Shown here: piece after piece, positions 1,941-54,398 of the stretch
Layout: every line of letters starts with the position of its first letter
How positions within the stretch are numbered: the first letter of the stretch is position 1
NCBI GenBank assembly: GCA_035610835.1
Contig: CM069449.1
Span: forward strand, 60,031,619 to 60,095,618
Direction: 5' to 3'
Length of the DNA stretch: 64,000 bases
Source: Ophiura sarsii
Taxonomy: Eukaryota > Echinodermata > Ophiuroidea > Amphilepidida > Ophiuridae
Program-made: the position numbers and the translations under genes
The notes under the pieces: model-generated
What the model saw: the letters and a program-made list of their open reading frames with translations, nothing else
Database searches by the model: none
Told to the model about the DNA's origin: nothing

Positions 1941-3062
1941 TTGTTCATCATCATCATCATTCATCATTGGTCGTCCGTGGACGAAATGGAGGAAGCATCG
2001 CAACATACTGAGACTAGATTTTCATGGCATTCATGAGTTGGCGGATCTCTGGTGGATCTAAACCCATATCGTTCTTGACGGTATCAGGATACTGAAGGGG
2101 TCTTCTGCCTCTGTTAGCTTTTCAACCAGGAGGAGTCCAGAAAATTAGACGGGAGATAGGCTGGTTGGTTGTTCGTATGCATATCCAGCAAATCTAAACG
2201 GCGCTGCCTGATTATTGATGTTATAGATAGAGGGATATCGCCATATAACACGCTGTTTGGAATGTGACCCCTCCAACTGATGTTAAATATTATACGCAAC
2301 AGTTGAGTATAGCATCCGTTTATTCGGTCTTCAATTTTCCTGCTGATGGTTCATGTTTCAGAGCCGTACAACAAAATGCTTTCTACGCAGGCTTTGAATA
2401 ATCTGATTTTTATTGTTCTTTCGAGATCAGACTTCCAGATCTTCTGTAGTTTATTGCAGGCAACCCATGCTTGTGCTTTCCTGCATTTTAATTCCTGAGA
2501 TGTGTCTGGAACATAGACCCCATAGTATTTGAAATTGGATACGTTTTCCAGCTATACTTCTTTGCTGGTCTTTACACTGGCTGAGGTGGTAATATTAGTA
2601 AGGAGGCTTTTGTTTTCCTTCATTCAAATATAGGCCAACTGCATTTGATGCGGCCTCGACACTCTGTAACAGTGATCCCGCTTCATGGATTGATGTTGCT
2701 AGGAGAGTTATAACGTCTTGCGAAATCGAGATCGTGAAGACGAATTTCAGGATAGCGTCTACTCCTCCTAGGCTCCAGAAGAATACCTATTTCATCAAGG
2801 ATGTCTGTCACGCACAGCGCAGTATATAGTCAAGAATTGTGATGAAGATGAAGGGTGCCAAAGTGTCACCTTGAAGAACACCAGCTAGAATCTTGAAAGG
2901 TTCCGTCTCCCCATCGGGCGATATGACAATAGCTGAAGAGTTGTCATACATTAATTTGATTGCCTTGACAATGGTGTCAGTGATACCATAGGAGCTGAGG
3001 ATGTCAAACATGCGATTACGGTGTATTGAGTCAAAAGCCTTAGAGAAGTCTATGACCACGGC
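1940..3062 (-). pseudogene. Decayed non-LTR retrotransposon (LINE) reverse transcriptase
   Basis: The clearest part is an open frame at 2808-3059 (minus) with reverse-transcriptase core motifs: VIDFSKAFDSIHR, which carries the first catalytic Asp region of RVT_1, and GVLQGDTLAPF, the conserved QGD(T/S)LSP block. Downstream on the same strand (lower coordinates) the C-terminal end can be followed in broken frames: NRGRRP near 2115 and an RCFLHFVHGRP-like tail near 1985, which resemble the usual last residues of many LINE ORF2 proteins. Stops and frameshifts interrupt the frame, and the YxDD block was not found intact. This is a dead element, not a host gene. The LINE clade cannot be settled from so little sequence. 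Confidence 0.75.
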
Positions 3063-3686
3063 AGCCAGTGGAAGGTTTTTATTGTTCAGCTGATGGCTAG
3101 TGGGCGCTGCATTTGATGTCCGTTATATTATTGCGGTAGCACTTGGGTAAAATATCCGAAGATAAAAATAATATCCGACGTTTCGGTCGAGAGACCTTGA
3201 TCATAGAGTGGAGAGTGTGTGCGAAAGCGGATTAAATTCAAAATAATAATGATACAAGAAGAAATACGCACGTAAGCAAGAGCGTCAGACAATAAGCATA
3301 ACGCAACACAAATGGGGCGTAAGCGCGGCTATAAGCGCAACACGCAGGCTCAAACACTATCCACGTGAAGATTAAATGCAAAAGAGAGAAATGAAAGAGA
3401 AGAGAAAAAGAGAGAAGAGGGAGAAGAATAGGATAGGAGAGGAGTAGATAAAGAAAATGACGGAGAGGAGGAGAGGAGTAGAGGAGAGGAGAGGAGTAGA
3501 TCAATAAAACAGAACCTGAAAGTATTAGAAAGTGATATCAAAATATAAACATGATTAAGGAAAAAAAGTCATGGTTAAGACAACATGAGAATGGAGATCA
3601 GAAAGCCACGGGGTATGTGTAGGGGGTAGAGGGGTTAAAGATGATGCGATGTAAACAGGAGGAGGGAGTTATGATTTGAAAGCTGT
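3063..3686. other. Retroelement-like 3' end and GA-rich low-complexity DNA
   Basis: At 3175-3215 the minus strand reads ATCAAGGTCTCTCGACCGAA followed by ACGTCGG, a phrase often seen at the ends of Penelope-like and other retroelements; this is a weak call. From about 3365 to 3500 the plus strand is almost pure purine (GAGAGG/AGAAG repeats). The serine/leucine-rich open frames on the opposite strand are artefacts of that composition. Confidence 0.4.
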
Positions 3687-4025: not shown

Positions 4026-4125
4026 NNNNNNNNNNNNNNNNNNNNNNNNNNNNNNNNNNNNNNNNNNNNNNNNNNNNNNNNNNNNNNNNNNNNNNNNNNN
4101 NNNNNNNNNNNNNNNNNNNNNNNNN
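4026..4125. other. Assembly gap (100 Ns)
   Basis: Exactly 100 undetermined bases, which usually denotes a gap of unknown size. It lies just downstream of the last visible exon of the minus-strand kinase gene, so missing 3' exons of that gene may lie in it. Confidence 0.98.
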
Positions 4126-4616: not shown

Positions 4617-4753
4617 TCGTAGATGTCCCATGATGTTGTCGCTTTTTTCACTTCGCCACTCCATGATTCCGGTGGGAGGTGTGATGCCGTTCCAAAGAGC
4701 TTGTCGCTATCATGCATCGTTGTATTACTCGATGATAGTCCAAGATCACCGAG
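4617..4753 (-). CDS. RIPK/MLKL-like kinase, exon 4 (activation segment)
   Basis: This 137-nt exon is too short to stand out as an open frame and was found by following the kinase. The intron ends TTTTAAG before it (acceptor at 4754-4755). The exon encodes LGDLGLSSSN through GTASHLPPESW to SWDIY and ends at a consensus donor GTAAGT (4611-4616). It enters in phase 0, matching exon 3, and leaves in phase 2. Motifs: Asp of the magnesium-binding triplet as DLG instead of DFG (about residue 333 of the joined protein), PPE in place of APE (about 357-359), and the helix-F Asp in WDIY (about 373). RIPK1 also has DLG. The C-lobe beyond helix F and the stop codon were not found; the next exon may be in the gap at 4026-4125 or outside the window. 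Confidence 0.85.
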
Positions 4754-7700
4754 CTTAAAACAATAATTGATTTGGTTTTAAATATCAATATATTTTGGAG
4801 TGACTCCGTGACATTTTAATTTATGATGAATCTCATAAACAGCCCAGGAACAAATGCTTTATGGTTGATAATTTTGATCACGTGGTCTGTAGCCATACTT
4901 ATTAACGTGAATGAAAAGAGAATAACTATTATTATATGGTCACGCGTTATGAACTCGCCTCCCAATAGGGTGGTCCTGTTACACTTTTTAGTTTTATGCT
5001 GTCATATTCCTTAAATATTTTTAAAACGACAAAAGCTATCTCAACAGATTTGGTATCATTTTTAAGCCCTAATAACAAGCTATAGGGGAGGATGGGGCAA
5101 CTGGACCGGTTAAGCATATTTCATGATATAAAAGCTTAAAGCTCGTGTAAATATTTATGGAATTGCTATGAAAATATCACCCATGTAACTGTTTACATAT
5201 AACATATAATCAATGTTTAAAAATATCCAAACAAAAGGCCAATTACCACTAACTAAAAACTTTACTTGGCACGGTCCAGTTACCCCATCGTTGGGGCAAC
5301 TGGACCTATATGTTCCAACGGTTAGAATACACAGAAATCATTGATTGGCAACACGGTAACTAAGCAGTATTTTCTTTACAAACTCATTTCCATATTATTT
5401 AACGTGTAAAAATGATACAGGTCTCATGAAACCCATGTTTTATACAGTTTTCGTGGTTAACGTGTAAAAAGCAGCAATACTAATGGTGTACAAAGCAAGC
5501 GCAATTTTCGACTGCACGTTTATTATAGATAAAACGGTATGAACCTAGTTAAATGGTTACATGGTTGTGATATTCAGACGCCCCATACATTTGTCTATAT
5601 ATACCCCTTTCTTTAATGATTTTATTTACTTCATATAATCATCATTTAGTATTTATAATAAACCATCTTGATATTTAGCCAGCTTTTCATGTTACAGGGG
5701 AAGTTAGTCAATATGACAATGATGACCCAACGGTTGATATACACAAAAAGCAGTGGATAAAATACATAAATCATGATATTTCGTCATAGCAAATACCTTT
5801 ACAGACACCATTCAAAATATAATAAAGATGTAATTCATAATACCGAGGTTTTAAACCATTCTAAAGCAATTTCATGTCATATTGTAATCCTTCAATATCA
5901 GAAATAATGGTATTAGACCCGAAATGCCCCAAAATGTTTAAGAACTTGAAAGAACTTGAAAGAATGTGAATTATTTCATATTCTATTCACATTTCAATAC
6001 CGAGTCATGTTTTATTGACACTAACAACTCATTTTCAAAATGAATTTTACAATTTTGATTAAGTTTTTGCAGGCGGTCCAGTTGCCCCACACCCCTTTGG
6101 ACCACTTACCCCAACAAATGACGTAGCACTTTGTCGAGATGAAACGTTATTAAAACACGCCTGTGACGTAATACATTTTACGCCAAAATGTTTTAAAACA
6201 TACCACCATTTGTCATAATAATCAATAACTCAATACATTTCAGAAAAAAAGGCAAAACTGCATTTTTGTTTTTAGCCATTACACAGATTTCTGTAGCCAG
6301 TGAGTATCTTTGAATTCGCAAATATTACGGCGTTCGGGTCCTACAAGTAGACGAGTGTCTTTAGATAAGTAAGAAATGGTGTACTTTGTTATTTGCAAAT
6401 TCATGAACTAATAACTCTACCAAATGAATACCCGTGATAATGATTTAAGTTGAAGCATTCTTTAAATGATAATATTGATCGGAAATCCAAACCACCAATG
6501 TCCCAAATTAGCAATATGCGCCATTTTACGGTCATTTCAACCACAACCTATGGTTTTAATCATATTTCGGAAAGTCCCTAAGCACACTACAATATATAAG
6601 CACCCATCAAATGCAATATGCACCTTGTATCTTAAGACGACTGTACTGCATGTATATATTTACTGTTGCATATCTGTCAATCATATAAAGTACATTAAAC
6701 ATGATCTAAACCCATCTTCATATATCGCCCATACTATCTGTGAATTTTCAATCAGTCACTCAAGGAGTTAGCTTCAAAGATATGGAGAAAAATCACATGT
6801 GTAAATACCCTAAAGTTCCAAATATTTTGGATTGTTGAAGGTAAAGATATATGTCAAGTATCAACAAAAGTCGTATTGTTCAAAAGAAAGCAGTATGCCC
6901 ATACAATTACAAAATCCTTCATTTCGGTCCACTTGCCCCACGGTCCAGTTGCCCCATATTCCCCTATGCCTGCAAAATAGCATTGGTATAGCTAATACAG
7001 AAGGGGATATACAGCTGTTTGAAGTTGGGGGACCAGGGGTGGTCCCGGAAGGGGTGCCGCCTGTACAAACTCAATGGGGATAATCCCATGCTTTGTTCTT
7101 TTTACAATAACTAGTCATCCCCTGATGTTACAAACACCATTCTGGTCCCATTTTAAAGGATATTTAGTAGTCTTTAATTATGTGGTTCAACAGACTTGTC
7201 AACTATTTGTAACAACTAATTAATTATGGATAAGACCATGATCATCACCTTTCTTCCTATTCGCTACACAGTCAACATGAATAATCAGCCTCAATTTACC
7301 GGATTTATAAAAATGACTATAAAAAGTTGTCAACCTCTATGATAGCAAAAGTATACATTTTTGGAAAGCTTGTGATTAGAGGAATTCAGAAATGCAATTT
7401 AGATCAGGGCAGGGTACATCCTTAACAAATATTTCTGGAAATTCTAAAAATATATAAAATAAAAAGTCGAGATATTCACTAGCCGGTTATAATTACCTTA
7501 CCGACGGAGTAACCTTTGACAATTATATATCATCGGATGAGTAATTTCATGAGAAATTCAAATATGTAAAGTAAATAATTATAGGGGTAGGTATTAACAT
7601 TATATGGATCTCCAATTAAAATTCAAAAACTCTGATACTTTTTCGAACATTGTGAATCATACCATTTTAGTCCCTGGTAGTACTATAATTTCAATGGCAT

Positions 7701-7970
7701 ATTTGGTTTTCTCATGCAATTTCCCTTCAATAAATGTATACTTTTACTACCTCAGGAGGGGGGGGGGGGGCGGTATACAAGCAAATATAAATGTGTAAAG
7801 TTAAAATCATGCCGCGAAAGCCCAAATCCGTGTGTAACACGAAAGGACGCGAGCTTTTAACACATGACCATATTATGAAAATATAAAAGTGATGTCTCCC
7901 CAATTCTGAGACCATCTGACTCTAGATATTACCTGTCTTTCTTTCTTTTTAGGACCACCTGTATACTTAC
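4754..7970 (-). other. Intron 3 of the kinase gene
   Basis: Bounded by donor GTAAGT (7965-7970, minus strand) and the acceptor at 4754-4755. Most of it is filled by the 1.88-kb inverted-repeat element at 5085-6964. There is a G tract at 7757-7770. No further exon was recognised. Confidence 0.75.
5085..6964. mobile_element. Non-autonomous DNA transposon with TA duplication
   Basis: The left end GGGGAGGATGGGGCAACTGG and right end CCAGTTGCCCCATATTCCCC are inverted repeats of about 25 bp, each flanked by TA (5083-5084 and 6965-6966). The terminal motif GGTCCAGTTGCCCCA is iterated inside near 5270-5310, 6075-6110 and 6926-6955, giving a modular sub-terminal structure. The interior is AT-rich with no transposase frame. 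The TA duplication would suit a Tc1/mariner-type element, but the family is not identified. Confidence 0.75.
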
Positions 7971-8277
7971 CTTTGCCATTAACCCATGGTCAATGAATAT
8001 ATTGCATGCCTTGATGTCCTTGTGTATGATAGGTGGCTTGAGATATGAGTGCAGGTAGTTCATTCCATTGGCGATGTCACAGAGCATGTGCATTCGTCTT
8101 GCCCAGCAGTCACAATTCATGTATTTCATGAAGGATTTCAAACTGCCGTTTTTATAGTAATCCATTACGATTGCATGGCATTCTGGTTCGTCTATGATTC
8201 CAACCAGTCTGACAATGTGCGGTGAATTGATTGCAAGTTGCATTTTGCAAGCTTCCCTTAAAACCAATTGATTGTTG
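7971..8277 (-). CDS. RIPK/MLKL-like kinase, exon 3 (helix C to catalytic loop)
   Basis: This exon spans helix C to the catalytic loop of a protein kinase. Its acceptor is TTTTCAG (8278-8280, minus) and its donor is the consensus GTAAGT (7965-7970). It enters in phase 2 (completing Ser with exon 2) and leaves in phase 0. Motifs in the joined protein: the helix-C Glu in LREACK (about residue 236), which pairs with the VAIK Lys; SPHIVRLVGI, a beta-4 region typical of RIPK/TKL kinases; hinge region VMDYYKNGSL; and the catalytic loop IIHKDIKACNIFID, with Asp about 315, Lys 317 and Asn 320. HKD in place of HRD is also seen in RIPK1. All residues expected of an active kinase are present, unlike vertebrate MLKL, which is a pseudokinase. 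Confidence 0.9.
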
Positions 8278-8755
8278 CTGAAAATTAATGTTTTAATTAT
8301 TTTATTTAAAATGAACTATCAAATGGCATTTGCGTGTCACAAAAAAAAAAGTTTAAAAAGGTAGAGCTGATATCTTTGAAATAACCCAAACCATTTATTT
8401 ATAAGACTCAGAAAGAGTATAATACCAGCATAGTAATGAGGTTAATCTATGACATTTTGAAAGAATTACTTTGGGAACCTTTTGAGATACGCGATGACTT
8501 GTTTACGTTTAATGCAGGCGCAAAAGTTATAATCTTGCTTCATTTTACGTACACGAATCTACGAACTTTAGCTGAGACCAACTCAAATATTTTACGAATC
8601 TTGCCCCTCCCCCCCTCCCCTACCAAGCCCTCACCCTATTCCCACAAACAGTGGAAATGGACTTGTCAAATTAAACAAAATAAATCCGCGTACCACTTCG
8701 TTGATTCGTTGTACCTATTGCTAACAATTACAATCAATGTCACTTAGCGGTGTAC
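8278..8755 (-). other. Intron 2 of the kinase gene
   Basis: Intron of 478 bp with donor GTACAC (from 8755, minus) and acceptor TTTTCAG. It is AT-rich with a short C-rich run near 8605-8625. Nothing else was recognised. Confidence 0.75.
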
Positions 8756-8909
8756 CTTGCTTTGGTGAATATCTTGATAGCAACTTTTCCACCGATTGAA
8801 TAAGTTGCTTCCCACACACTCCCAAATCCACCGTCTCCTAGCGGTCGAATCAGATCAACTTCAGCGAATTTCAATAATGGCAATTTTTCAGCTCCTTTTG
8901 GTTGCTTCG
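8756..8909 (-). CDS. RIPK/MLKL-like kinase, exon 2 (ATP-binding lobe)
   Basis: 154-nt exon encoding the start of the kinase domain. It is entered in phase 1 after acceptor TACTTTAG (8910-8911) and left in phase 2 at donor GTACAC. The G left over at the end of exon 1 plus CG here makes the Ala of AKQPKGAEK, so the frame runs on without a break. Motifs: DLIRPLGDGGFGSVWEA is the glycine-rich loop GxGGFGxV (about residues 201-208), and KVAIKIF carries the beta-3 Lys (about 222). The GDGGFG form and the spacing are typical of TKL kinases such as the RIPKs. The segment before the loop, AKQPKGAEKLPLLKF, is the linker from the N-terminal helical domain. Confidence 0.9.
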
Positions 8910-10434
8910 CTAAAGTAGTGAACATATGAAAACACTAAATGATTAATATAATTCAACCGGGGTCACTAGTTTGGACATGTGATGGCTACGCACCCGGGTC
9001 CTCGTTAACACGTCGAAAAAGGTCATGGTTTTACTGCATGATGCCAACGCTGTCTGTCTGATAAACGGATGTTAGGTAAAGGGATACGCAGTAGCGTTGA
9101 AGATTTCTTTTTATATTTAATTTACTTCAGAGTTCAAGATGAACAAGTTTGGTTACTGGGGAGCATACAATGTTTTGAAACACACATGTGACCTTCTACC
9201 CTAATTCAAGGTCAAGGTCAATCAACCACCCACGTTGGCAAGGATGTACACGTTTTAATTGTACCAACTTCCAAGAACGTGTTGGTTTTTTTACTCCCTG
9301 TGTCAGCCTCGGACTGTGACCGGAAGACCTCTATGCTTCCTATCCTAACTGAAAGAGTGAAATTCTGATCGATTCGATCGAAGCTGTAGATCATAATATT
9401 TGAATTATGTTTTATTGTACAAAGAGGACTGATTTTTCTTAATCCTTATAGGTGTAAGTTCATACATCCCAGTTTGTATCATAATTGAGGGCGCAACATC
9501 CAAGATATCAATGCCTTTAAATAATTTATGAATTCATTGCTTCATCACTTGTATGGTTCCAATGTTCTCGTGCTCTTTAAGTATGATATTATGAGTCAGT
9601 GCAGTGGCTTTTAAACTCCTTTCGGCTCGTTGTTGCCGGGATCGCGGGCAGGGCTAACGATCACCAAGGTCTGCAAACCCTTTCGACGCGATAACGTGGT
9701 TGCATGGATATAACGTGGATATATTTACCCACCATGCATCGCTTCATTTGGATGCCCCCTTAAAAAGTCCTTGCCGCAGCCTGCACAATTATTTAAGAGA
9801 TTATTTAGGTTGCCCCCGTTCAATCCGATAAAGGCCTACTGAAGAGAAATCTCTCTTGCCGTTGTCTAGAAAATCAGAATCAAAATACACATATCTTTTG
9901 AGTGATTTGAGATCTTTTAATTTTGGTTTTAAGTGTGTATTTCGCATTTAATTTTGAATTATTGCAATGCTATATGAATAATGATGTATAAAGAGACACT
10001 TTTTCTGGCCTTATAAAGGTCTCAAATTCTTCCCTGGAACCCCGCAAGCGCGCCTTGCCCAAACATCCTACTAGCGGCCTATTAAAAGTCCGAGGTATAC
10101 TCCATTTCGCGAAGGCGAATTTGTCGCCGCGTCAAATTCGCCCCCGCTTCTTTCGCGCGACAAATTTCTTTTATACTTCACGCGATAAATCAATATTCGC
10201 AACGTTAATGTTGCCGTTGCTTTAACCGTGCTTTACAGTTGCCGTTGCTTGTTTTTAAGATGATGAATTTAGGGATTTGTTTAGAGGGATTTAAATCCAT
10301 GAATGTTTTGGCTTGATAATTTAAAGGATTTGAGTGACGCTTTCACTTCACCATGTTCACAGGAAGGCAATGATGCTATTAAACACATTAAAATGAATTA
10401 AGAACATGTGGTGGTCTTAGAAATAAAAAGGAGC

Positions 10435-10620
10435 CATTCCGAAACCACTGCACCTTATCTTGGGTCATTTGGTGTATTGACTTTTCGCCCGTTGGTTTTA
10501 TTGACATAACAATATACAAAGGAAGTGGGCGGAGTAGTGTTTCTGATATGTGTCACTTTTTGCGATCCCAAAAAGGGAGAATCAATTACTTCACTTAAGG
10601 TAGCCTGGTTACGACATGGC
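10435..10620. repeat. 186-bp direct repeat, copy 1
   Basis: Repeated almost exactly at 11746-11931 (I see two differing bases). Starts CATTCCGAAACCA and ends ACGACATGGC. The near identity within an otherwise decayed intron suggests a recent duplication. Confidence 0.9.
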
Positions 10621-11407
10621 ATGATGGCCGGGAGGAGTATGGAAATACGCAGACTTGAATTATGTCAGCGGCGGCGAATAGAGCGGGGGGGGGGGGGGGG
10701 GGTGGAATTAATCAGAACTTGAATTACGGGAGGAGATAGGGGTGGTGTGGGGGGGGGGGGGGGAGGGGTGGTGTGGAAGTAAACAGAACTTAAATTACAG
10801 GGGGGGGGGGGTGGAAGTAAGCATATCTTTAATTACCAGGATGGGTGGAATTCAAAATTCAAAATTCAAAAAACTTGAATTCAAAATCTTTTTTTTCTTC
10901 TCATTGGCTTGTAATTCTTTTAAAATTGTATTTTTGATATTTTAAAAAATCGAAAATGAAAGCCTTATATTTCTGCCATTTCGATAAACAAAAACATGTT
11001 AAACTTTAAATCGTTTTAAACAATCATTGGTGCCTAGGGCACGTGTCCGAGAAGTGACAATGTCGCAGGATCTTGCATTAAAATACAGTGGTGTGGAGAA
11101 AATGAGCTTTTATACACAGCTCTATGGAGAAAATTTTACATAATCGTCCATATCTCGAAAAGAAAATCATTAATTACACATTTTCTTTTTTCAAAGTAAC
11201 TTTTTTGGGCAGCCTATATGCAAATCTTTTCTTTAAAAAAAAAGAAAAAAAGAAAGAAGTTTTTTATATAATTTTAATCCTCCAATTAGTCCTACTTTAC
11301 TCAAATTGAATTTATTTATATTTCATGTCACATCACACCTATCTCGATCCTAAAAACCGGAACACACGTCATCACCCCGCCTACCCCACCTCATGTACGT
11401 CACTTCC

Positions 11408-11669
11408 TAACACTTTCCACGCGGCAGGCGTCTGCAGACGACATTCAGAAATTTCACAAAATGTTTAAAAAACAAAATATTGTATTGACTTTCTATACCC
11501 TATTTAGAATCACTATGAGAAACGCATTGAAAGAATTTTAGTTGAAAGAAGTACAAACATACCTAGTCTTGGTTATGTTATCCTTGAGGTATACTTTTAA
11601 AATTGGGAAAGGTTTCTGAAAAATCTGTTTTGTTTAATGTCATAACTAATTGCCGCGTGGAAAGTGTTA
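11408..11669. mobile_element. MITE with AACACTTTCCACGCGGCA ends, copy 1
   Basis: The left end TAACACTTTCCACGCGGCA is mirrored at the right as TGCCGCGTGGAAAGTGTTA. About 260 bp with an AT-rich non-coding interior. A second, more decayed copy is at 63076-63325. Confidence 0.8.
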
Positions 11670-11745
11670 ACTTCAACCCATTTTGGGTGGTTTTCTCAGT
11701 TTTTTAAACTCACTAGTAAAAAATATTGCCTGTCTGTATCTACAT

Positions 11746-11931
11746 CATTCCGAAACCATTGCACCTTATCTTGGGTCATTTGGTGTATTGACTTTTCGCC
11801 CGTTGGTTTTATTGACATAACAATATACAAAGGAAGTGGGCGGAGTAGTGTTTCTGATATGTGTCACTTTTTGCGATCCCAAAAAGGGAGAATCAATTAC
11901 TTCACTTAAGGTAGCCTGGTTATGACATGGC
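11746..11931. repeat. 186-bp direct repeat, copy 2
   Basis: Second copy of 10435-10620 in the same orientation, offset by 1311 bp. Confidence 0.9.
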
Positions 11932-12934
11932 AAAAGGCCAACATAAAAAATCGTACACTTTTTGGAGTTCTGGGTTTCAACATGGATGCAATTTTTGGAG
12001 TTCTGGGTTTCTTGTTTGAGTTTTGGCTTTATAGGTACGTAATATTAAATATACCAACCTTTTGGGGCTCTGTTTTTTTTTCAACGAAAAGGCATGTAAC
12101 GATCTATGAACATGATGAACCACATTTACTAACAAAAATGGCTCCGGGTTTCACTTCCTAGACCAGGGACTATTTGACTACCACGAATTATTTTTCATGT
12201 TCAGATCTTTATAATCTTTTCGTTGCAGGTCATACAGATGGATACTCCTGCATCGAGTTTATCAGTTTCTCCTTAAAATGCACCCATGTTGAATGAAATT
12301 GGGGATGTTTAACAGCGTGATTCAGGATGAGATAACCCGTTGACCAATATGTCCAGCCAATCGGAATCGTTTGTCGCGCGCGAATTGTAGCTAGAGTTGA
12401 ATTATTTCAACTCTAGCGAATTTGTTGCGCGAAAGGTTTTTCTCTCGCGGAGATACGATTTTCTTTCGCGAAGGTCGTAAAATTCTACCCAAAAAGTTGT
12501 CGCAGCGACAAATTCGCGTCCGCGAAATGGAGTATACATTGGTCGTTAAGAACCAAGCCGACAAGTGCTTCGCCACTAGAACCCAACAGGGGCACCTTGG
12601 CCAAATCACATAATGATGATTTGCATTAAAATATTCTCTACGAATATCTTTAGAAATTTCATTTTTGAGGTGAAAAAACTGTTTTTGGATGATCATTTGG
12701 CAAACGTTATATACGGTAATCTGTCACATTGCTTTGGGAAGCTGACAAAAGACTGCTATTGTGTGTTTATCAAATTCGTCGCAATGATAATAATCACGTG
12801 GTAGGCGAACATGCCCCGGAACGTACCATACCATTATCAGTGTGTTACGTAGATTTGTTGGTACGTTGGTATGCAGTTTCCATAGTAATCGTTTAGGCTT
12901 ATATTTAATGAAATTATTTAAATTAATGCCCCAC

Positions 12935-13463
12935 CTGTTATGCCACCGGAACGTTGATGTCCTTCTACGGAGCTTGCCGAGGTTGCTGAGAAAGCACCGC
13001 TATGTCTCGCGTGTTTGAGAAGCGATTGCATTACATCGGCCCCCTTGTTGCAGTCTCCTTTGATCTCTGTTAACACCGCAAACTGGATAGATTTCTGCAG
13101 TTCGTCAATCTCCCAGGCTAATTCATCGTACGTTGTCTGAACCCAACCTCTTTTAGTTAATTTTTGCATGTTATTCATTGCTTTGACATTCTCGATGAAA
13201 TCTTGAACTTTCGTGATACAAACTAGGATTTCGGATAATGAATTAGCAAACAAGTGCAGTTGCGGGTCTTGTTTGCAATTCTTATTAAGCACACCTCTCT
13301 GAGATCTCAAAGTTGACAAGACATCAAGAGTAGGCTTCATGTGCTGAATTTTAAAGTCCAATTTCTTTAAAGGTTCTGGGAATGCTTTCACTTCTTTGAC
13401 AGTTTTGTGAATGTAAATTGTCAATTTGATGATTTCCCCTATAATAGCTATCGGATCGGCCAT
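12935..13463 (-). CDS. RIPK/MLKL-like protein, exon 1: N-terminal helical (4HB/HeLo-like) domain
   Basis: The exon encodes about 176 residues starting at ATG 13463 (MADPIAIIGEI); the open frame extends to 13514 without another ATG. The sequence is predicted to be almost all helical: GEIIKLTIYIHKTVKEVKAF, LKKLDFKIQHMKPTLDVLST, a segment around LSEILVCITKVQDFIENVKA and WEIDELQKSIQFAVLTE. The helix order, the early IHK motif and the KPTLDVL pattern resemble the four-helix bundle of MLKL, and the MADPIAIIG start resembles HeLo domains of fungal and plant cell-death proteins. In those families the bundle inserts into or disrupts membranes. The exon ends ATAACAG at donor GTGGGG (12933-12934) in phase 1, which fits the kinase exon 4 kb downstream. 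A cell-death executor role is an inference from domain likeness. A related helical fold such as an NLR N-domain is the main alternative. Confidence 0.65.
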
Positions 13464-13608
13464 CTTGATGGATATCTTATATTTCCATATCTCTGATCGA
13501 TACAATTTGGTCAATTTTCCTGAACAATCACAAACAAAACAAAAATAAAGAAAATAAGAATAAATTAATTAGAATGTATCTACATGCAGCTCGTTGGAAT
13601 GTAAAATA

Positions 13609-27370: not shown

Positions 27371-27990
27371 ATCTTACACTTTTCCGATATGTCTTATTGT
27401 GTGATATAAATTTATATAGTTTATAAAACAAAAATCGAATTTGAACTTTTCATGGCTGCCATTTGAATTAATCATAGAAATACATTTAGTTTTCTTATGA
27501 AGTTAAGATTTATGAAAAAGTTCTCATAAAAGTTACTTTTATAAATTCTAAATTCCACGTTTGACTGATATTATGTCTTGTTAAATCGATTAAACCACTA
27601 TTATGTTCGGCACACAGTTATTTGGTATGACCTGTTTTAATTTCCCCAAAAAAGGAGATAGATCAACTTTTCGTGATGTTTATGAAACAATGTTTGAATG
27701 ATGGAAATGAATTGTTCAACTTAGGTGACTTACTCCGATCCTTTCTTTGCCGGCAGTTTGAATAGTTTGAAATCGACTTAAATCAAGTTTTCACCGATTA
27801 TCAATATAAATGTCATGCCACACCAAAGTGAATAACGATATGATATCTGATGAAATGAACAGAACCTGACATGCTTAAGACGCTAAGAAAAATTCCATCT
27901 CACCATTATCATTTCCATTATTGCTCGTTCAAGACCAGGAGGATTTTCTACGCAAAACCAAAAGAGACACTATTCCAGATAATCCATCAG
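27371..27990. other. Sequence upstream of the first visible TRPC exon
   Basis: AT-rich, no exon recognised. The exons for ankyrin repeats and S1-S3 expected of a TRPC gene were not found upstream in this window. Confidence 0.5.
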
Positions 27991-28004
27991 TGATTTTTCA
28001 TCAG

Positions 28005-28479
28005 CACCAGACCTTGACCAAAGCAGTACCAATCACACCAATGATCCCCTTGTTCTTCACCGAGTACCAACTCTGCCAGTAAACAGAATATCGAAACCTG
28101 GAGTAGCAACTGGCGGTAGACAGGATGAGGATTTATCCCAAAAATATCGCGAGATAAAAGATCTAGTATTCCGCCAGTTCAATAACTACTCCTGGTGGCA
28201 TCTGCATTTGATCTCCACCGGATTGTTTGCAATTGCAACGGTGTTAGCGTTACTTCGGATGCTACCATATGTGGTGGTCAGTGACGTCATCGGACCGCTT
28301 CAGATCTCGTTGGGGACGATGGTGTCACAGACATTACATTTCTTTGTCTTTATCGGTGTAGTGTTTTTGGCATTTGCTGTAGGACTGACTTACATTTACT
28401 CGTATTATGATGAGGTGAATTTACAGATTTGTGTGAAAGTAAATAGCGCAAACAACTGTCAATCTGGAAATTTCGCAAA
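28005..28479 (+). CDS. TRPC-type channel, exon with S4, S4-S5 linker and S5
   Basis: First visible exon of a TRPC-family, calcium-permeable plasma-membrane cation channel. It encodes a polar stretch of about 65 residues (S3-S4 loop), then LISTGLFAIATVLALLRMLP (S4), GPLQISLGTM (the S4-S5 linker signature of TRPC channels) and TLHFFVFIGVVFLAFAVGLT followed by YIYSYYDE (S5). The donor at 28480 (AAA before GTAAGT) leaves phase 2, which fits the next exon. The exon start is uncertain: AG acceptors at 28003-28004 (after TTTTTCATCAG) and 27989-27990 are both possible, and an in-frame stop lies just upstream of both. The long loop is unusual for the family. Family call is firm; subfamily is not. Confidence 0.88.
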
Positions 28480-29584
28480 GTAAGTTAGTTTTATTTGTAT
28501 CGTGTTGAAAAAGGACAGAAATGGTATCTCATGTGGTTTTGCATAACTAGAAACTGCGTTTAAGAAAAGTTGCTATTTTATATAACACGTTTATTTTTTT
28601 GCTATGAGCGCTAATATTCCTACCCTAACCAGTCGAACTGTGTATTCTTGAGCAGGTTATTAACAATCATCTTGCTAAAGGTGGTAATATTGAAAAAGTA
28701 AATGGAGAATTTGTCTAGATAACCTAGGAGCCAAGTCTTGTGATATAAAATTGTCTTGTATAATTCATCAAATCGTATGCAAAAGAAATACAATCGACTT
28801 AAGCGCTCAGCATACTCCACAACGCTTGGCCGCTGAGCGCAAGCGTTAGCCACCGTTCTCCAATCAGGTTTCGTCTTTTTGTTATGACGGAGTTACCACG
28901 CATGTGCGAGAGCGCAAAGACATAGAGCGTAGTGAAGTCTGCTGAGTGCTTAATGTTAAAGGTTTTTCTGTTTCATATGAACCACTTTGTTCTATAAAGA
29001 ACGGAACAATCCAAATGTGCACACGAAGCTGTACACGCCTACGTCATTGTGCGAATGGTATATACATGTACATGTATACGTTTTAGGGCTGTGGCCCTTA
29101 CTCTCAACCTCTCTTATCGCGATCTTTCATCGAGCTTAGCGCTTTTTAAATCCACTCCTTCCGCGGTCGTAAAATGTTTATGTTCACCGCCGATCAATAG
29201 TTAAACAATACCAAAGGCCTCAACATGTATCTGGTCGTCTAGACATATCTATAAGGCTATTGACCCATCACGGGTGTGAAATTGTGTTTACTCTCGCTCT
29301 ATTCATTGATAGCTCAAGAAATAATCTAATTATTATCCCAGTCTTTGTGTTCCGCGCAGTATTGCCATGGTCTGGTGAACGGTACTATAATATTTCTATT
29401 GTTAACGCCAGACAAGTAGAGTGGCGGCTCAGCGGGGTGTTAATCACAGATCTTTTTGCGATCCTTAGAAAAACGGATAGCGCTATCTATTGCCTAAAAA
29501 AGGCAAGAGCCCTTATCTGACGTGCCATGTTGCTGCACCGGTTACATTCTTCTTTGATCTAACACAAGGTTTTTTTCATTGCAG
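28480..29584 (+). other. TRPC intron containing a dispersed repeat
   Basis: Intron of 1.1 kb from donor GTAAGT to acceptor TTTTTTTCATTGCAG. It contains the repeat at 29084-29365. Near 28798 and 28952 there are weak inverted matches around GCGCTCAGCA/TGCTGAGTGC. Confidence 0.8.
29084..29365. repeat. Dispersed repeat, copy 2 (pair with 3687-3957)
   Basis: Same orientation and block order as 3687-3957, with small insertions and substitutions. Lies wholly inside a TRPC intron. Confidence 0.75.
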
Positions 29585-29780
29585 TCTGTTTTTCGGTACT
29601 GTTTATCTCTACTGGTCTGTGTTCGGATTGAAATCTATAGATGCCCTGCACCTTGGTCGGCAGTCGGTACTACTAGAGATAACGGGGTATTTGTTGTACG
29701 CCATGTTTTATATATTACTCATAGCAATTCTTTTGAACGCCTTAGTGGCTGTTATGAGTAGTAGCTTCAATCAAATCGAA
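29585..29780 (+). CDS. TRPC-type channel, pore and S6 exon
   Basis: 196-nt exon with acceptor TTCATTGCAG and donor GTAAGT after ATCGAA. It enters in phase 2 and leaves in phase 0. LFFGTVYLYWSVFGL contains the pore-helix and filter phrase WSVFGL of TRPC channels; VLLEITGYLLYAMFYILLIA followed by ILLNALVAVMSSSFNQIE is S6. The LLN-L-A-M-SS pattern corresponds to the S6 gate region of the family. It is an in-frame continuation of the S5 exon. Confidence 0.92.
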
Positions 29781-30401
29781 GTAAGTAGGGGTTTAATACA
29801 CAGGTTTTTTTTGGTAAAACAGAAGAACACTATCTATTCAAAATAGGGGAAGGGAGGGCTGGGGTGGGAATCTTAAACTGTAAGATGATTATCTCTAGGG
29901 TGCCATTAAAGTATAAACAGATCATTTCAAATCGAAATAGATTGCGGTACCAGGGGGGAATCCACTTCAGTCATGCGTGCCCGTAACAATAGGTTCTCGT
30001 TCTCGTAGTATTCGTTGCTCAGAACAATTCAATGCACGACCTTCAAAGAATGAACTACATTTGGTGGGCTATTTTGAAATAAGTATGTGTTGGTGTTGGT
30101 CACATATATATCGGCGGAGTTGATGTATTTAAATTCTGAAACAGACTTAAGTTCCCGCAAATATGGCCGATACATGGATTACCTCTATACTTGCGACCTC
30201 ATGAACCTTTGAAATTAAAAACACGTTTGGTTTGATAATTCATCTAATCATGTTTCGAATCATTACGATTTGGAGCGATTTATACCACGGGACTTTTGTG
30301 GAAATGATAGCGTTCAATAATAACTATTACCTATTTTATAAGTGCACGTGTTTTTGTGTAATGATATATTTAGTGATATTTACTCCTCTGTATAAAAACA
30401 G
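29781..30401 (+). other. TRPC intron
   Basis: 621-bp intron from GTAAGT to AAAAACAG. Nothing else recognised. Confidence 0.8.
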
Positions 30402-32490: not shown

Positions 32491-32854
32491 CCCTGTACAA
32501 TGAGCTGTGTGGTATAAGCCCTGTACAATGAGCTGTGTGGTATAAGCCCTGTACAATGAACTGTGTGGTATAAGCCCTGTACAATGAACTGTGTGGTATA
32601 AGCCCTGTACAATGAACTGTGTGGTATAAGCCCTGTACAATGAGCTGTGTGGTAAAAGCCCTGTACAATGAACTGTGTGGTATAAGCCCTGTACAATGAA
32701 CTGTGTGGTATAAGCCCTGTACAATGAGCTGTGTGGTATAAGCCCTGTACAATGAACTGTGTGGTATAAGCCCTGTACAATGAACTGTGTGGTATAAGCC
32801 CTGTACAATGAACTGTGTGGTATAAGCCCTGTACAATGAACTGTGTGGTATAAG
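32491..32854. repeat. 28-bp minisatellite, 13 units
   Basis: Thirteen head-to-tail units of 28 bp (CCCTGTACAATGARCTGTGT plus GGTATAAG) with only A/G and one T/A variation, starting every 28 bp from 32491. Each unit contains the palindrome TGTACA. Since 28 is not a multiple of three and no frame has a stop, long frames appear on the minus strand; they are artefacts. Confidence 0.98.
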
Positions 32855-36112: not shown

Positions 36113-36627
36113 GTAAGTGCTATAAGGAAGATTTATTCCGGGACCATGACCTTTTTTGAAATGCTGAACAATACAATTTATGAGCAAATACGAGACATCA
36201 TTCAATTATTCAACTTTCATCAAATGGGATCGTTTTGTTTTTCTTTCAATACTTTCTTAAACAACTAGATATCTTTGTTCTAATGAGGTCTAAAAGTGGT
36301 CATAATCATTTCTTTGCATTCATTAACAGCATAAAGGTATTTGATACCAATTACCCTGTTCAAAGTATTTTTGATTTATAGCAAACAGTTTACCGACTTA
36401 ATGAGGTTTTTCTAGTAACTGACTTGTTTCAGTATTTCAAATAGTGCATATTGTATAATAATAGTGCTACATGGACAACAAAAATCAAAAACAAAACAAA
36501 ACGAGCAAATGAAAAACACCCTATACTCAAATCCCTAAGCATACTCCACCAGCTTCTAATACCACTGTATTGTAAGTTATCATAAGCAACATGTTTAAGC
36601 ACCGCATCATTTTTCTTATTTAATCAG
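36113..36627 (+). other. TRPC intron
   Basis: 515-bp intron, GTAAGT to TTTAATCAG. Nothing else recognised. Confidence 0.8.
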
Positions 36628-37294
36628 GCTGGAGATGTTTCAACGCCTACACGATACTACAAGTAACATCGACAATACGATCGGAACAACTCTCGTCGTT
36701 AGAGAAAAATCAGAGCATGCAAACAAAGTCTTCAGACAAACAGAAGAAATTTTCTCGGTCGTTGACGGCCACATGGACACCGCGACGCATTTCAAATCGG
36801 AAGTAGAAGAAAAAGTGGTATACGGCGAGGTGGAAGCGGTACGTCTTGTTGAAGAAAAAATTGCATCGCTTTTTGAAAAACATAGCCAGACCGAATTTTT
36901 TCTATTTCAGCGAGAAATATCAACACAATGTGACGAGTTACCTACGAACGAGGACTCTACACAAACCGTGATACATTTGAACGACGAGTTTGCGCAGACC
37001 GATGATTTGCCAGTAAATGATGAGTCTGCGCAGACTGACGCCACACGTAGAACAACCAGATGGACCCAAACGCGTAGAGCAATTGCAGCAGCTGCGGCAG
37101 CGAGACCAGCACCGAATTCTTTTAAAGTGGCCGTTTCGGGTGTGATGGATAAAAAGATCAAGAAACGTGCACAATCATTAACAGCAGCCGCTGTAACAAA
37201 ACCCGTAGCATCGAGTTCTTTCAAAGTGGCTGTTTCAAATGTGACGGATAGAAAGAACAAGAAACCGTCACAACCATCTGGATGGAGGTGTTAA
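36628..37294 (+). CDS. TRPC-type channel, last exon with repetitive tail
   Basis: The last exon continues the helix (KLEMFQRLHDTTSNIDN) in phase with the previous exon and runs to TAA at 37292-37294. After about 90 residues of charged, probably coiled-coil sequence, the tail shows two internal repeats. The first is acidic: STQCDELPTNEDSTQT, EFAQTDDLPVND and ESAQTD. The second is basic: NSFKVAVSGVMDKKIKKRAQ against SSFKVAVSNVTDRKNKKPSQ, about 35 residues apart. The tail is unlike the vertebrate TRPC C-terminus and looks like a lineage-specific scaffold or binding region; its function is unknown. Continuity with the channel rests on splice phase and on the coiled coil running across the junction. 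Confidence 0.85.
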
Positions 37295-43684: not shown

Positions 43685-45257
43685 ATTCTTATCTAGTTAA
43701 TTGGTTATTTTTATCTTTATCATAAAATAACGCAGTTTGTTAGATTTATTTTAATCAAACAACAACAAATTTCCCCCTTTATAAAATAGGCAAATCCAGC
43801 GAGCTGTTTACCAACTTCCTGCTTCGAATTAGTCACGTTCTTTAGCACACGCGCACATGGCAACGCTGCGTTATACGCACAACGCATACGCCGGCGACTT
43901 TGTGTAGGGAACGCTAACGCGATGATCATACGCACAGAAGGTATTATTTTTCTAATGAATTAAACCCCGCCCAATTCTATACACCATTGTCTGATAATGT
44001 ATGGGCGTATCAAATTGTCTGCTGACATCCCAAACCACACCCACTATATAAGAATTGCTTAATAATACCTGAATGTAAAATCGTGAATTGCATCTCTCCC
44101 CTATTATTGACGAATTAAAACTATTTACGGCACAATCATTTGAATTCCAGGGTAGTATTTCGTTCAGATTATTTGTTAAATGGTATACATCATTGTTTGA
44201 TCCATCACAAATAGCTTGAAAGGATCATACTATTGCGTTACAATTTCTGTGATTGCTTTAGTTGCTATGGAGACGTATACTTTGTAATATTGATCATGTG
44301 CATACAATTTGTTTGAAAAATTACGTAGGAAGGGGTATCAACGTTTATTATCTTTTTAATCTTAAAGATTTTATTTGAAATGTTTGGACGTTTTTGAAAT
44401 TTTATTTGAACAATTTAAAGACAAGATTTAAAGAAAACGTTGAATAAATTAAAACAACCGACCGAGCGACCGACCATACCGTAACTTATTAGGTTGATGA
44501 TCATTTTTGTTATGCCGTATTTTAAGACCTTCGCCGGACTCAACGGTTTAATATGCCTGAAGGCCATCTTTGACGGCATGCTTCTACCGTCTTGTTTAGA
44601 ACATTTTGATTTATATTTATGCCGACCTTGCCACAACTTTACTGTGACATTGAGTTTGGCTAGCCATAGATTCTGCTAGAATCATACTCATATGCCAACA
44701 TGTATATCTGCTAATCGTATATTATGAAATGTGTGAGGATAACATCGGCATATATAGGAAAACATAACTTGACCACCCCTAAACCGTTATTTGTAACCTA
44801 AAGTAAAAAGGTTGGAAACTAACAATCGGACTCATTGTAAATGAAGGCCTGTCAGAGGTCCGTTCGCCCGTAAACAGGGTTTAAAATCTATATTATTTTG
44901 TGTTTACGTAATTAGATTAAGCGCCTTCATTACTATTCATAATGAAGGAATGGCGCTGTATTTGGTCATAAAGTGTCATTATTTCAATAAATATTGCTAG
45001 TTGTAGGTTTCCATACCAACCATGTTTACGATTCAGGAAATGAGTTATAGATAATCTATATTTTAAGAGCGCTTTTACTTATTACTGTGCCGTAGTTTCC
45101 ATACGTCAATACCACAGGTCGACTACAAATCGCGATTTTAAGCACAAAATTGCTTCACGTGTACACGGTTTATTATGTCATGACGGTTTATCAAAAAGAG
45201 AGCGTTAACCTATTGTTATTTTGCTGCTAGAGTTACTTCGTTTTAGTACGCATCGCC
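43685..45257. other. Upstream region of the GPCR gene
   Basis: No exon recognised. GATCATTTTTGTTATGCCGT and similar AT-rich DNA without repeat families I know. Promoter elements cannot be assigned. Confidence 0.5.
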
Positions 45258-46247
45258 ATGGCCTCAGATACATTATTTGTTGCGTGTAGTGTATTTTTTT
45301 GTATCATCCAATTGGCAACCATCATCACAAACTCAATGACAATTATCGCTTTCGCTAAGGTTCCAAGTTTGCGAAAACATTCAAGTAATATCTTGATACA
45401 TGCACTATCAATAACTGACTTATTCTGGGGTATATCTCAGTTTGTATATTACGGAATACCTTTCATGTTTGGTACTGGGTATCTCTTTGGCGAAATCGGA
45501 TGCATGATTGCAGTGCCTTTGGAATATGTTTACAGTGTAGGTAATATGATGTTAGTAGCGATCAGCATTGACCGAGTGCTGCTTGTATCTTTGGATTACG
45601 CAAAGTATGTTAAAATGGTGACCACATGGCGTCTTAAAGTGGCAATACTTATATGCTCTCTGATCTGCTTCGCCAGTTCCATAGTTGAGTTGAGTTTGTG
45701 GAATTTTGCGAAAAGAAATAACGCAATTGCTGCCAGCATCGACTTTAATCGGGCCTGCTTGTTCCCACCTCGCCGGATGAAATGGATAGGACTCTACATC
45801 TCTGTGTGTTTCTTTGTTTTGCCACTACTCTTAGTTGGTATCTTCAGCGCTGTGTTTGTTAATCGTCTTCTAGTCAGGATACGCCACAGTAGGCGGATTG
45901 GGAACGTGCCGAGTGCCAGCATCGCTAGCAGCTCCACAGCAGGTTCTACTAATGCAAATGAAAGCTCTGTTAATGTCAGAAAGCGCTATATTAAACCCGC
46001 GGTAACACTAGCGGCCCTAGTGTCTGCAATGTGTGTTAGCATGCTACCGTACTCTATTTATCTCATTGTAGTGGCTGTATATGGTAGTTTTAGTTTCGAT
46101 GTTACTGCAATTATGTGGACTATTGTACAATTGAATCCGTTACTTGACCCGGTGTTTTACGCCGCAACACAAACAGGGATTCGAGAATTCTATCGGAATA
46201 AGATCACGGGGTTGTTCCGCACGTTTCGTTCATGTCAAAATCCGTAA
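45258..46247 (+). CDS. Class A (rhodopsin-like) GPCR, intronless
   Basis: Complete 329-codon frame, a seven-helix plasma-membrane receptor. ATG in good context (CGCCATGG). Landmarks: Asn25 in TM1 (TNS), Asp54 in TM2 (LSITD), Cys82 before TM3 and Cys167 in the second extracellular loop (likely disulfide), DRV at 105-107 instead of DRY, a Ser/Thr-rich third cytoplasmic loop (about 217-240), Pro of TM6 in SMLPYS with Met where the toggle Trp usually sits, and DPVFY (297-301) for NPxxY. There is no signal peptide and only a very short N-terminus, so a small-molecule or otherwise buried ligand is more likely than a large-domain ligand. The family is class A, possibly an invertebrate-expanded orphan group; ligand unknown. 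A broken paralogue lies upstream on the other strand. Confidence 0.95.
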   Translation: MASDTLFVACSVFFCIIQLATIITNSMTIIAFAKVPSLRKHSSNILIHALSITDLFWGISQFVYYGIPFMFGTGYLFGEIGCMIAVPLEYVYSVGNMMLVAISIDRVLLVSLDYAKYVKMVTTWRLKVAILICSLICFASSIVELSLWNFAKRNNAIAASIDFNRACLFPPRRMKWIGLYISVCFFVLPLLLVGIFSAVFVNRLLVRIRHSRRIGNVPSASIASSSTAGSTNANESSVNVRKRYIKPAVTLAALVSAMCVSMLPYSIYLIVVAVYGSFSFDVTAIMWTIVQLNPLLDPVFYAATQTGIREFYRNKITGLFRTFRSCQNP

Positions 46248-52772: not shown

Positions 52773-53497
52773 TTGAGAGGGATGGCAGCTGCTTTACATA
52801 AACTAGTTTTGACTATCATACTTTCAACTGACAGCTTTTTACTAATTTTGAAAGATATTTGATGCACACGTGTATAGTGTCCCAACAGGTTTTGAACAAG
52901 ATTGTAATAAAGCATTGTAAAAATAATGTACTAAATTCATATAAGTCCTTGTAACTGCATTAAATAAGTTCCAAATTATCTTATATTTGGCAATATTAGA
53001 GAGCGATAATGTGCCATTAGTATCGTTTATTTAAGAAAAGAATGGGTTAGTAATGTCTTCAATTTAAAGGGGCATTGTCTGAATTACGCACCTAAATGGT
53101 ACTTTTGAATAAAGACTTATTTCATAAGATATAGGTAAAACAAATAATGTCAATTAAATTTAATAAACTAATGATTGTGTTATTGTGGTAGGGTGGGGGT
53201 GTTGTGGGGGTGACCGTTTATTTCGGATTAATATACTCTTAATTGAAGCATGTTAATTGAGACGCCATAATAATTAAGATTCGTATTCGTATTTGTATAG
53301 AGGTAGATGTCAACCAACACAAAATATCCATTTGACAACGTAATACATCACCTATAAATCGCATGTTATTATTAAACACATTATACCAATTCGTAAGGTC
53401 CGGAAAAATTAAATTAACTTTAGAATAAAAAAATACAAACATTTCTAAAATGAAATACAAAACTAAACAAACGCAAACAAAACCATAAAAACAAGAA

Positions 53498-53569
53498 TCT
53501 ATCGAGATTCGAACCAGCAATCTACTTATTCTAAGACAGGAAACATACCACTGAGCTAACTGGGGAGTC
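53498..53569 (-). ncRNA. tRNA-like module of array unit 1, minus strand
   Basis: The minus strand reads CCCAGTTAGCTCAGTGGTAT (A box TTAGCTCAGTGGT) and, at tRNA distance, GGTTCGAATCT (B box). The acceptor arm does not pair well. Equivalent B boxes are at about 55004, 56504, 58008 and 59498 in units 2-5. Confidence 0.6.
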
Positions 53570-53902
53570 AGCTTTTTGAAGAGGCATTTTGCTTATTAAC
53601 TCTAGCACCGTATTGATCAACCACGGTCAACCCATCAATTACAATAGAACCCTATGTACGGTCTACCAGAATGAATAGAAAGGAAGTATTGATCATCTTT
53701 TAAGATATTATTGGTAAACCGTGGTTAATCGTGTTGAATTCGCAAAAATGATTATTATTTTGAACAGTATGAAAGTGTATATAATGTTAACCGTGGTAGA
53801 CCGATAATAATAAGTGTATTTCCATACTTAATCATCTCAAGAAGAATATTAGTTTAACAAGATAAATTGTTATACCTTATCTTCTTATACTAGTACAACG
53901 TA

Positions 53903-53973
53903 TTGCCCTACTAGTGTAGTGGTTTCGACTGACACCGCAGACTCTGTCCATGGGTTCGAATCTCAGCGCGGCA
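53903..53973 (+). ncRNA. tRNA-like module of array unit 1, plus strand
   Basis: TGCCCTACTAGTGTAGTGGT holds an A box (TAGTGTAGTGG), and GGGTTCGAATCT (from 53952) a B box. The ends TGCC and GGCA pair, and GACA/TGTC can form an anticodon stem with an overlong loop, so it is a degenerate tRNA or SINE head. B boxes in units 2-5 are at about 55451, 56951, 58448 and 59945. Confidence 0.6.
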
Positions 53974-54202
53974 GTTTAGTTACATTTTAATTTTTACTTC
54001 AAATGTTTAAACAATTAAGATTTGAAATAAATGAATTGATCAGGTTTGTACAACATGTTTTTTTCGTCGCCTTGACGCACCGCCACTTGATGCAATCGTT
54101 TGAAACACTCGCCGCTGTAAATTAGATACTTTGAAACTATGACACTTTATCAAAATACACGTTATTTATGTATTTCATTAAATATGTATACGTAATTAGA
54201 CT

Positions 54203-54398
54203 AAACTGTTGGGACACTTCCTGCATGTCCTGTGAAACGGTGGTCCCTCCCCCTGGGGGGGGGGGGGGGGGGGGGGGTTGAGAGGGATGGCAGCTGCTTT
54301 ACATAAACTAGTTTTGACTATCATACTTTCAACTGACAGCTTTTTACTAATTTTGAAAGATATTTGATGCGCACGTGTATAGTGTCCCAACAAGTTTT
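54203..54398. mobile_element. Small inverted-ended element inside the array unit
   Basis: AAACTGTTGGGACACT at the left and AGTGTCCCAACAAGTTTT at the right are inverted ends about 196 bp apart, with CCCCCT and the G tract in the middle. The junctions between array units fall within this element's G tract. It recurs in each unit. Confidence 0.7.

Follow-up and report, generated by a model that had tools for sequence, protein, structure and literature searches.

Must the kinase that senses a death signal and the domain that carries out the killing reside in separate proteins, as they do in vertebrate necroptosis, where the sensor kinase RIPK3 and the executor MLKL, itself a dead kinase, are distinct? 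This question is raised by a locus of the ophiuroid Ophiura sarsii, located in a 64,000-nt stretch of DNA (the window, whose positions supply all coordinates given here), in which four minus-strand exons (Table 1) join to encode 375 stop-free residues, numbered below on this joined four-exon model. With a probability of roughly one half, we read the locus as the 5' part of an animal MLKL-type gene whose product would carry a four-helix killer domain (residues ~1-136), a short brace or linker, and a RIPK-like kinase (from ~195 on) that keeps its catalytic residues. The joined architecture is already known; the unusual part is the intact-looking catalytic set in an animal protein.

Exon structure and the kinase domain

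A preliminary description of this DNA had proposed four exons with junction phases of 1, 2 and 0 and GT/AG at every intron edge, and the 375-residue stop-free join bears it out. The introns measure 4.0, 0.5 and 3.2 kb. Splice sites were ranked as percentages of all GT or AG sites in the window, and these ranks serve as a guide, the underlying matrix being one of general metazoan splice-site frequencies. The four donors, CAG/GTGGGG, AAG/GTACAC, AAG/GTAAGT and CGA/GTAAGT (slashes mark the exon ends), rank in the top 0.1, 6.7, 0.0 and 1.7%, respectively; exons 2, 3 and 4 have acceptors of lower rank (top 11.6, 40.1 and 52.9%). The ATG at 13463 stands in a good start context (AAGATGG), and upstream of it a strong acceptor at 13519 (top 0.5% of window AG sites), absent from the preliminary description, makes an additional exon of the 5' untranslated region (5'UTR) likely. 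The stop-free frame around exon 1 extends over 216 codons, a length reached in none of 60 Markov-simulated windows (mean longest 145). Since this frame stops at 12918, some 15 nt past a donor of the top 0.1%, exon 1 is very probably a spliced coding exon in need of a phase-1 partner, a role that exon 2 fits. A stand-alone, intronless exon 1 gene ending at that stop was also considered and is thought unlikely, given the very strong donor. The GC content by codon position is alike in exon 1 (0.46/0.335/0.438) and in the kinase exons (0.462/0.382/0.452).

The kinase identity of exons 2-4 is certain from their sequence. The joined model matches PF07714 at E 1.3e-28 and PF00069 at E 8.9e-27, with the homology starting near residue 195, and it retains the VAIK lysine (K222), the helix-C glutamate (E236), the HKD aspartate (D315), the catalytic-loop asparagine (N320) and the DLG aspartate (D333), all of which had been recognized earlier, together with the PPE glutamate (E359) and D373. 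When profiles were built from 20 kinases (human MLKL, RIPK1-3 and 16 proteins retrieved by protein searches with this model), exon 2, 3 or 4 was in each case the sole significant match in the window (E 1.8e-8, 1e-27 and 4e-5), the next best reaching E 1.2 to 2.2; the profiles are only partly independent because 16 of their 20 rows were retrieved with the model itself. This kinase homology makes exons 2-4 secure despite their modest acceptor ranks. The sequence is best read as a single spliced gene containing exons 1-4, the join resting on splice sites and phase.

Compared with reference chains whose sequences were verified in the PDB, the window kinase scores 87.0 bits with RIPK3 (31% identity), 86.7 with RIPK2 (33%), 74.3 with RIPK1 (29%) and 60.8 with MLKL (28%); the 16 retrieved kinases span 61.6 to 87.4 bits. 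The earlier label of a RIPK1-like kinase holds for the HKD and DLG motifs, which RIPK1 shares, but not for the overall score, in which RIPK3 and RIPK2 exceed RIPK1. RIPK3 also carries a segment, RKASTASDVY, that resembles KKATTSWDIY at the end of the window segment. RIPK1-5 are defined by an N-terminal kinase with RHIM, death, CARD or ankyrin parts behind it; on the joined model the kinase is not N-terminal, and the parts that would come after it fall outside the window. The RIPK1-3 chains compared here have no helical domain ahead of the kinase, and to our knowledge none precedes it in the whole proteins.

The 3' end of the gene lies beyond the window base 1, inside the assembly gap downstream of exon 4, or is missing. 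With introns of the sizes given above, the next exon may sit past the window start or in the gap. Beyond the kinase exons there is also a reverse transcriptase fragment on the minus strand (2808-3122; RVT_1, E 6.8e-9).

Table 1. Exons and associated features of the candidate MLKL-type gene (window positions; a slash marks the splice junction)
Feature	Position	Strand	Remarks
5'UTR part of exon 1 (likely)	13464..13519	-	acceptor TTTTGTTTGTGATTGTTCAG/G, first exon base 13519; frame open to 13568
Exon 1	12935..13463	-	start codon; residues 1-176, comprising a predicted helical, MLKL_N-like domain (~1-136) and a linker; donor CAG/GTGGGG, phase 1
In-frame ATG in a weak context, from which a kinase-only product could start	8923..8925	-	just upstream of exon 2 acceptor
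Exon 2	8756..8909	-	kinase start, GDGGFG loop, VAIK (K222, codon 8775-8773)
Exon 3	7971..8277	-	helix C (E236), hinge, HKDIKACN catalytic loop (D315, N320)
Exon 4	4617..4753	-	DLG (D333), Ser/Thr-rich activation loop, PPE, WDIY; donor CGA/GTAAGT, phase 2, gene continues
Assembly gap, 100 N	4026..4125		downstream of exon 4

The predicted helical N-terminal segment and a possible one-protein switch

When exon 1 was compared with the 24,736 models of Pfam, MLKL_N ranked first, at 14.9 bits and E 0.019 for the 176-residue query and at 15.4 bits and E 0.013 for 155 residues, the match starting at profile position 1. The score falls to 12.6 bits (E 0.1) with the whole 375-residue model as query, and MLKL_N was matched by none of nine decoys (the reversed sequence and eight shuffles). 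Human MLKL aligns collinearly with residues 1-125 at a global score matched by 0 of 1000 full shuffles and at a local score reached by 14 of 1000, and BLASTP pairs residues 11-49 with human MLKL 7-45 (18.9 bits). A single-sequence structure model of low confidence predicts helices at residues 4-26, 30-54 (broken), 56-62, 67-98, 105-136 and 138-154. Residues 1-98 have a calculated isoelectric point of 9.2 and residues 1-140 one of 8.73, compared with 9.66 for human MLKL 1-117. Pfam also includes models for HeLo, HELL and SesA, none of which is listed for exon 1 up to E 10 (weak matches being filtered), and no Pfam death-fold model is listed either. Every match to exon 1 in a sequence search of the PDB has an E value of 0.5 or worse; with the structure model, Foldseek gave no match at E <= 0.001 and VIA-align returned chiefly generic four-helix bundles. 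The resemblance of exon 1 to the MLKL killer domain is weakly supported. A faint MLKL_N match is nonetheless to be expected of an invertebrate MLKL, though it is no proof of membership, because published domains have been missed in the same way: the four-helix bundle of a sea-cucumber MLKL escaped SMART and was seen only via structure prediction (PMC11932488), and MLKL_N went undetected in sea-cucumber and amphioxus MLKL (PMC11507063).

Human MLKL shares with the window protein the order of helical N-domain, brace and kinase fold and the same top Pfam model, but is a pseudokinase with HGKIRSSN and no DFG aspartate where the window protein has HKDIKACN and DLG. The catalytic-residue loss of vertebrate MLKL is therefore not found in the window kinase, and such loss is not required of all published MLKL-type proteins, as wheat Pm13 illustrates (PMC10951266). 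In a single chain, Pm13 combines an MLKL N-domain with a kinase that has every key residue and is predicted to be active, and it has been termed a kinase fusion protein; compared by description, it resembles the proposed window protein in these respects and differs in coming from a plant. Among animals, 22 invertebrate MLKLs have been reported from echinoderms, hemichordates, cephalochordates, urochordates and rotifers, and several of their N-domains kill HEK293T cells (PMC11476962). One sea-cucumber protein, AjMLKL of Apostichopus, possesses a Lys-Glu pair (VVIK-Glu) termed classical active kinase features and a kinase domain at 209-467, compared with a start near residue 195 in the window protein; infection gave no phosphorylation shift and activation proceeded by caspase-1 cleavage (PMC11932488). 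By description, the window protein is like such invertebrate deuterostome MLKLs in architecture and spacing (PMC11932488, PMC11476962, PMC11507063), and it has the Lys-Glu pair in common with AjMLKL. In fungi, some HELL domains likewise occur together with a kinase or pseudokinase domain in one protein (PMC12881547), an arrangement that recalls the combination of a four-helix killer domain and a kinase, although no HeLo or HELL model is listed for exon 1. RIPK3 is reported from vertebrates or craniates only and MLKL in invertebrate deuterostomes (PMC11932488, PMC11507063); the former nonetheless tests a protein named AjRIPK3. Among the open-access matches listed, none declares in its title or in the first lines of its abstract an animal MLKL with all catalytic residues, and AjMLKL comes closest; this is no proof of absence from print. 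An executor domain and an active kinase in one chain, as the preliminary description had envisaged, thus still agrees with one spliced gene as the best reading and is less new than it appeared, given that MLKL itself unites this domain with a kinase-like one and is known from invertebrate deuterostomes and rotifers (PMC11476962), and given the Lys-Glu pair of AjMLKL (PMC11932488) and Pm13 (PMC10951266); the accompanying suggestion that the arrangement is ancestral stays conjectural.

If the window protein is indeed of the MLKL type, we infer an MLKL-type N-domain, kinase activity, self-activation and killing, which might be connected as follows. In the resting state the kinase domain would restrain the helical bundle. 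Once copies were brought together, or an upstream signal arrived, they could phosphorylate one another in trans within the Ser/Thr-rich activation loop (SSSNTTMHDS), and the ensuing change in shape of the kinase domain would free the bundle to bind acidic membrane lipids and permeabilize the cell. The fullest version of this idea, which we regard as doubtful, is a one-protein animal necroptosis switch in which a functional RIPK-type kinase, sharing a chain with the four-helix killer domain, would let the protein self-activate by trans-phosphorylation, representing a state before the loss of MLKL activity and before a separate RIPK3 activator. Were it true, a live kinase in an MLKL-type protein of such an animal would reveal a way for the executor to fire without RIPK3, and expressing a single protein would allow a direct test of whether MLKL was originally an active kinase.

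Points against an MLKL-type gene and competing explanations

Several results weigh against an MLKL-type gene. At the level of the gene, exons 3 and 4 have weak acceptors, and the model ends after subdomain IX, in phase 2 past ...WDIY, so that the carboxy-terminal lobe of the kinase (C-lobe, ~90 residues) is missing from it; the 20-kinase profile found no C-lobe exon in any of the six frames of the 64-kb window (best E 5.9), and the same approach recovers exons 2-4. The description of the kinase as catalytically intact consequently applies to the residues seen, the domain being incomplete in the window. At the level of the kinase, the plant kinase P0002 reaches 87.4 bits across 154 columns, level with RIPK3, and among the best 60 of 1891 PDB matches to the model, chains of the plant CERK1 (up to 76.1 bits) and one of EGFR (74.2) rank ahead of RIPK3 (73.3), RIPK2 (70.3), RIPK4 (69.1) and RIPK1 (58.8), MLKL being absent from these 60. 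A kinase phylogeny had been proposed as a check: in a tree of 21 rows, no starred group contains the window kinase, which is left unplaced, although RIPK2 is closest to it both in path and in identity (34%). Because plant kinases and an EGFR chain score as high and the tree does not place the kinase, 'RIPK-like' denotes resemblance and not placement.

The N-terminal segment is subject to similar reservations. Its MLKL_N match lies under the 27-bit cut-off of that model, and the E value is not significant by itself because the reversed decoy reached E 0.01 with another Pfam family. Shuffles that keep the hydrophobic pattern of residues 1-125 attain the human MLKL score in 34 of 1000 cases (global) and 104 of 1000 (local), and the N-terminal domain of human MLKL, used as a single query, places exon 1 no higher than fifth among its window matches (E 11). 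The structure model of exon 1 has a mean pLDDT (predicted local distance difference test) of 51.3 and forms a helical bundle resembling generic four-helix bundles; MLKL is absent among the best 50 rows of either fold list for this low-confidence model, by which an MLKL fold is not excluded. Of the original view that exon 1 is helical and MLKL-like, the predicted helices and the first-ranking Pfam model stand, at a score below the cut-off and in a low-confidence model, and the fold comparison speaks neither for nor against an MLKL or HeLo fold. Protein searches yielded no orthologue with the full model (1955 candidates and 10 matches, the named ones being plant kinases and a Clarias SRK3 kinase), no match to residues 1-176 up to E 10 (248 candidates), and no orthologue for residues 190-375 (190 candidates and 6 matches, the named ones being plant kinases and one kinase/RCC1 protein); distant orthologues may escape these searches because shared exact words are required.

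How well do other explanations accommodate these data? The protein might be an ordinary invertebrate MLKL orthologue, its kinase domain serving as a shape switch only, despite the kept residues, and its activation occurring otherwise, e.g. by caspase cleavage as in the sea cucumber. The 22 known invertebrate MLKLs (PMC11476962) provide precedent, as does AjMLKL, which keeps VVIK-Glu, depends on caspase-1 for its activation and did not show a shift in phosphorylation after infection (PMC11932488). We consider this explanation unlikely, since the catalytic and DFG aspartates lost in human MLKL are kept here and the kinase scores higher with RIPK3 and RIPK2 than with MLKL. Those same scores would suit a RIPK-like signalling kinase whose unrelated helical N-domain mediates self-association without membrane killing, a notion also in keeping with the sub-threshold MLKL_N match, with fold lists (best 50 rows each) that show generic bundles only, and with the varied domains, such as DEATH and LRR, added to amphioxus RIPK-like kinases (PMC9573974). 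Position, length, helix order and the top Pfam rank favour MLKL_N instead, and no Pfam death-fold model is listed, which makes such a signalling kinase quite unlikely.

Two further explanations concern the gene model itself. Exon 1 could belong to another transcript, with the kinase starting from its own ATG at 8925 (MFTTLAKQPKG...) and bearing a short N-terminus like vertebrate RIPKs. The ATG is in frame, the RIPK2 and RIPK3 chains have a short N-terminus before the kinase, 4.0 kb separate exons 1 and 2, and the exon 2 acceptor is moderate; set against this are the very strong phase-1 donor of exon 1, the phase-matched acceptor of exon 2 and the weak start context at 8925, so that two genes seem improbable. 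Least probable is a truncated copy or pseudogene that has lost the C-lobe and whose product is not a kinase. The failure to find a C-lobe exon across 64 kb, whereas exons 2-4 were recovered likewise, and the downstream reverse transcriptase fragment would be in line with it; yet 375 codons run without stop or frameshift, the catalytic residues are kept, a good donor follows exon 4, and introns of up to 4.0 kb could put the next exon inside the assembly gap or beyond the window start.

Other features of the window

Rfam and tRNA scans of the window returned nothing. A plus-strand open frame of 231 residues (36599-37294) carries repeated QTD-like motifs and has no Pfam match up to E 0.01. On the minus strand, a 117-residue frame recurs five times, nearly unchanged and at a spacing of ~1.5 kb (53239-59585), forming a large tandem repeat; one copy was searched and has no Pfam match up to E 0.01. 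A 28-bp tandem repeat at 32491-32854 comprises 13 copies with 97% matches, and three minus-strand frames are open across it. Exon-like plus-strand frames at 27983-28483 and 29481-29846 show below-cut-off matches to PKD_channel (E 0.002) and Ion_trans (E 0.0022), respectively, and perhaps belong to one gene for a channel of the transient receptor potential (TRP) kind. Finally, a single-exon frame for a rhodopsin-type G-protein-coupled receptor lies on the plus strand at 45231-46247 (7tm_1, E 9.7e-17).

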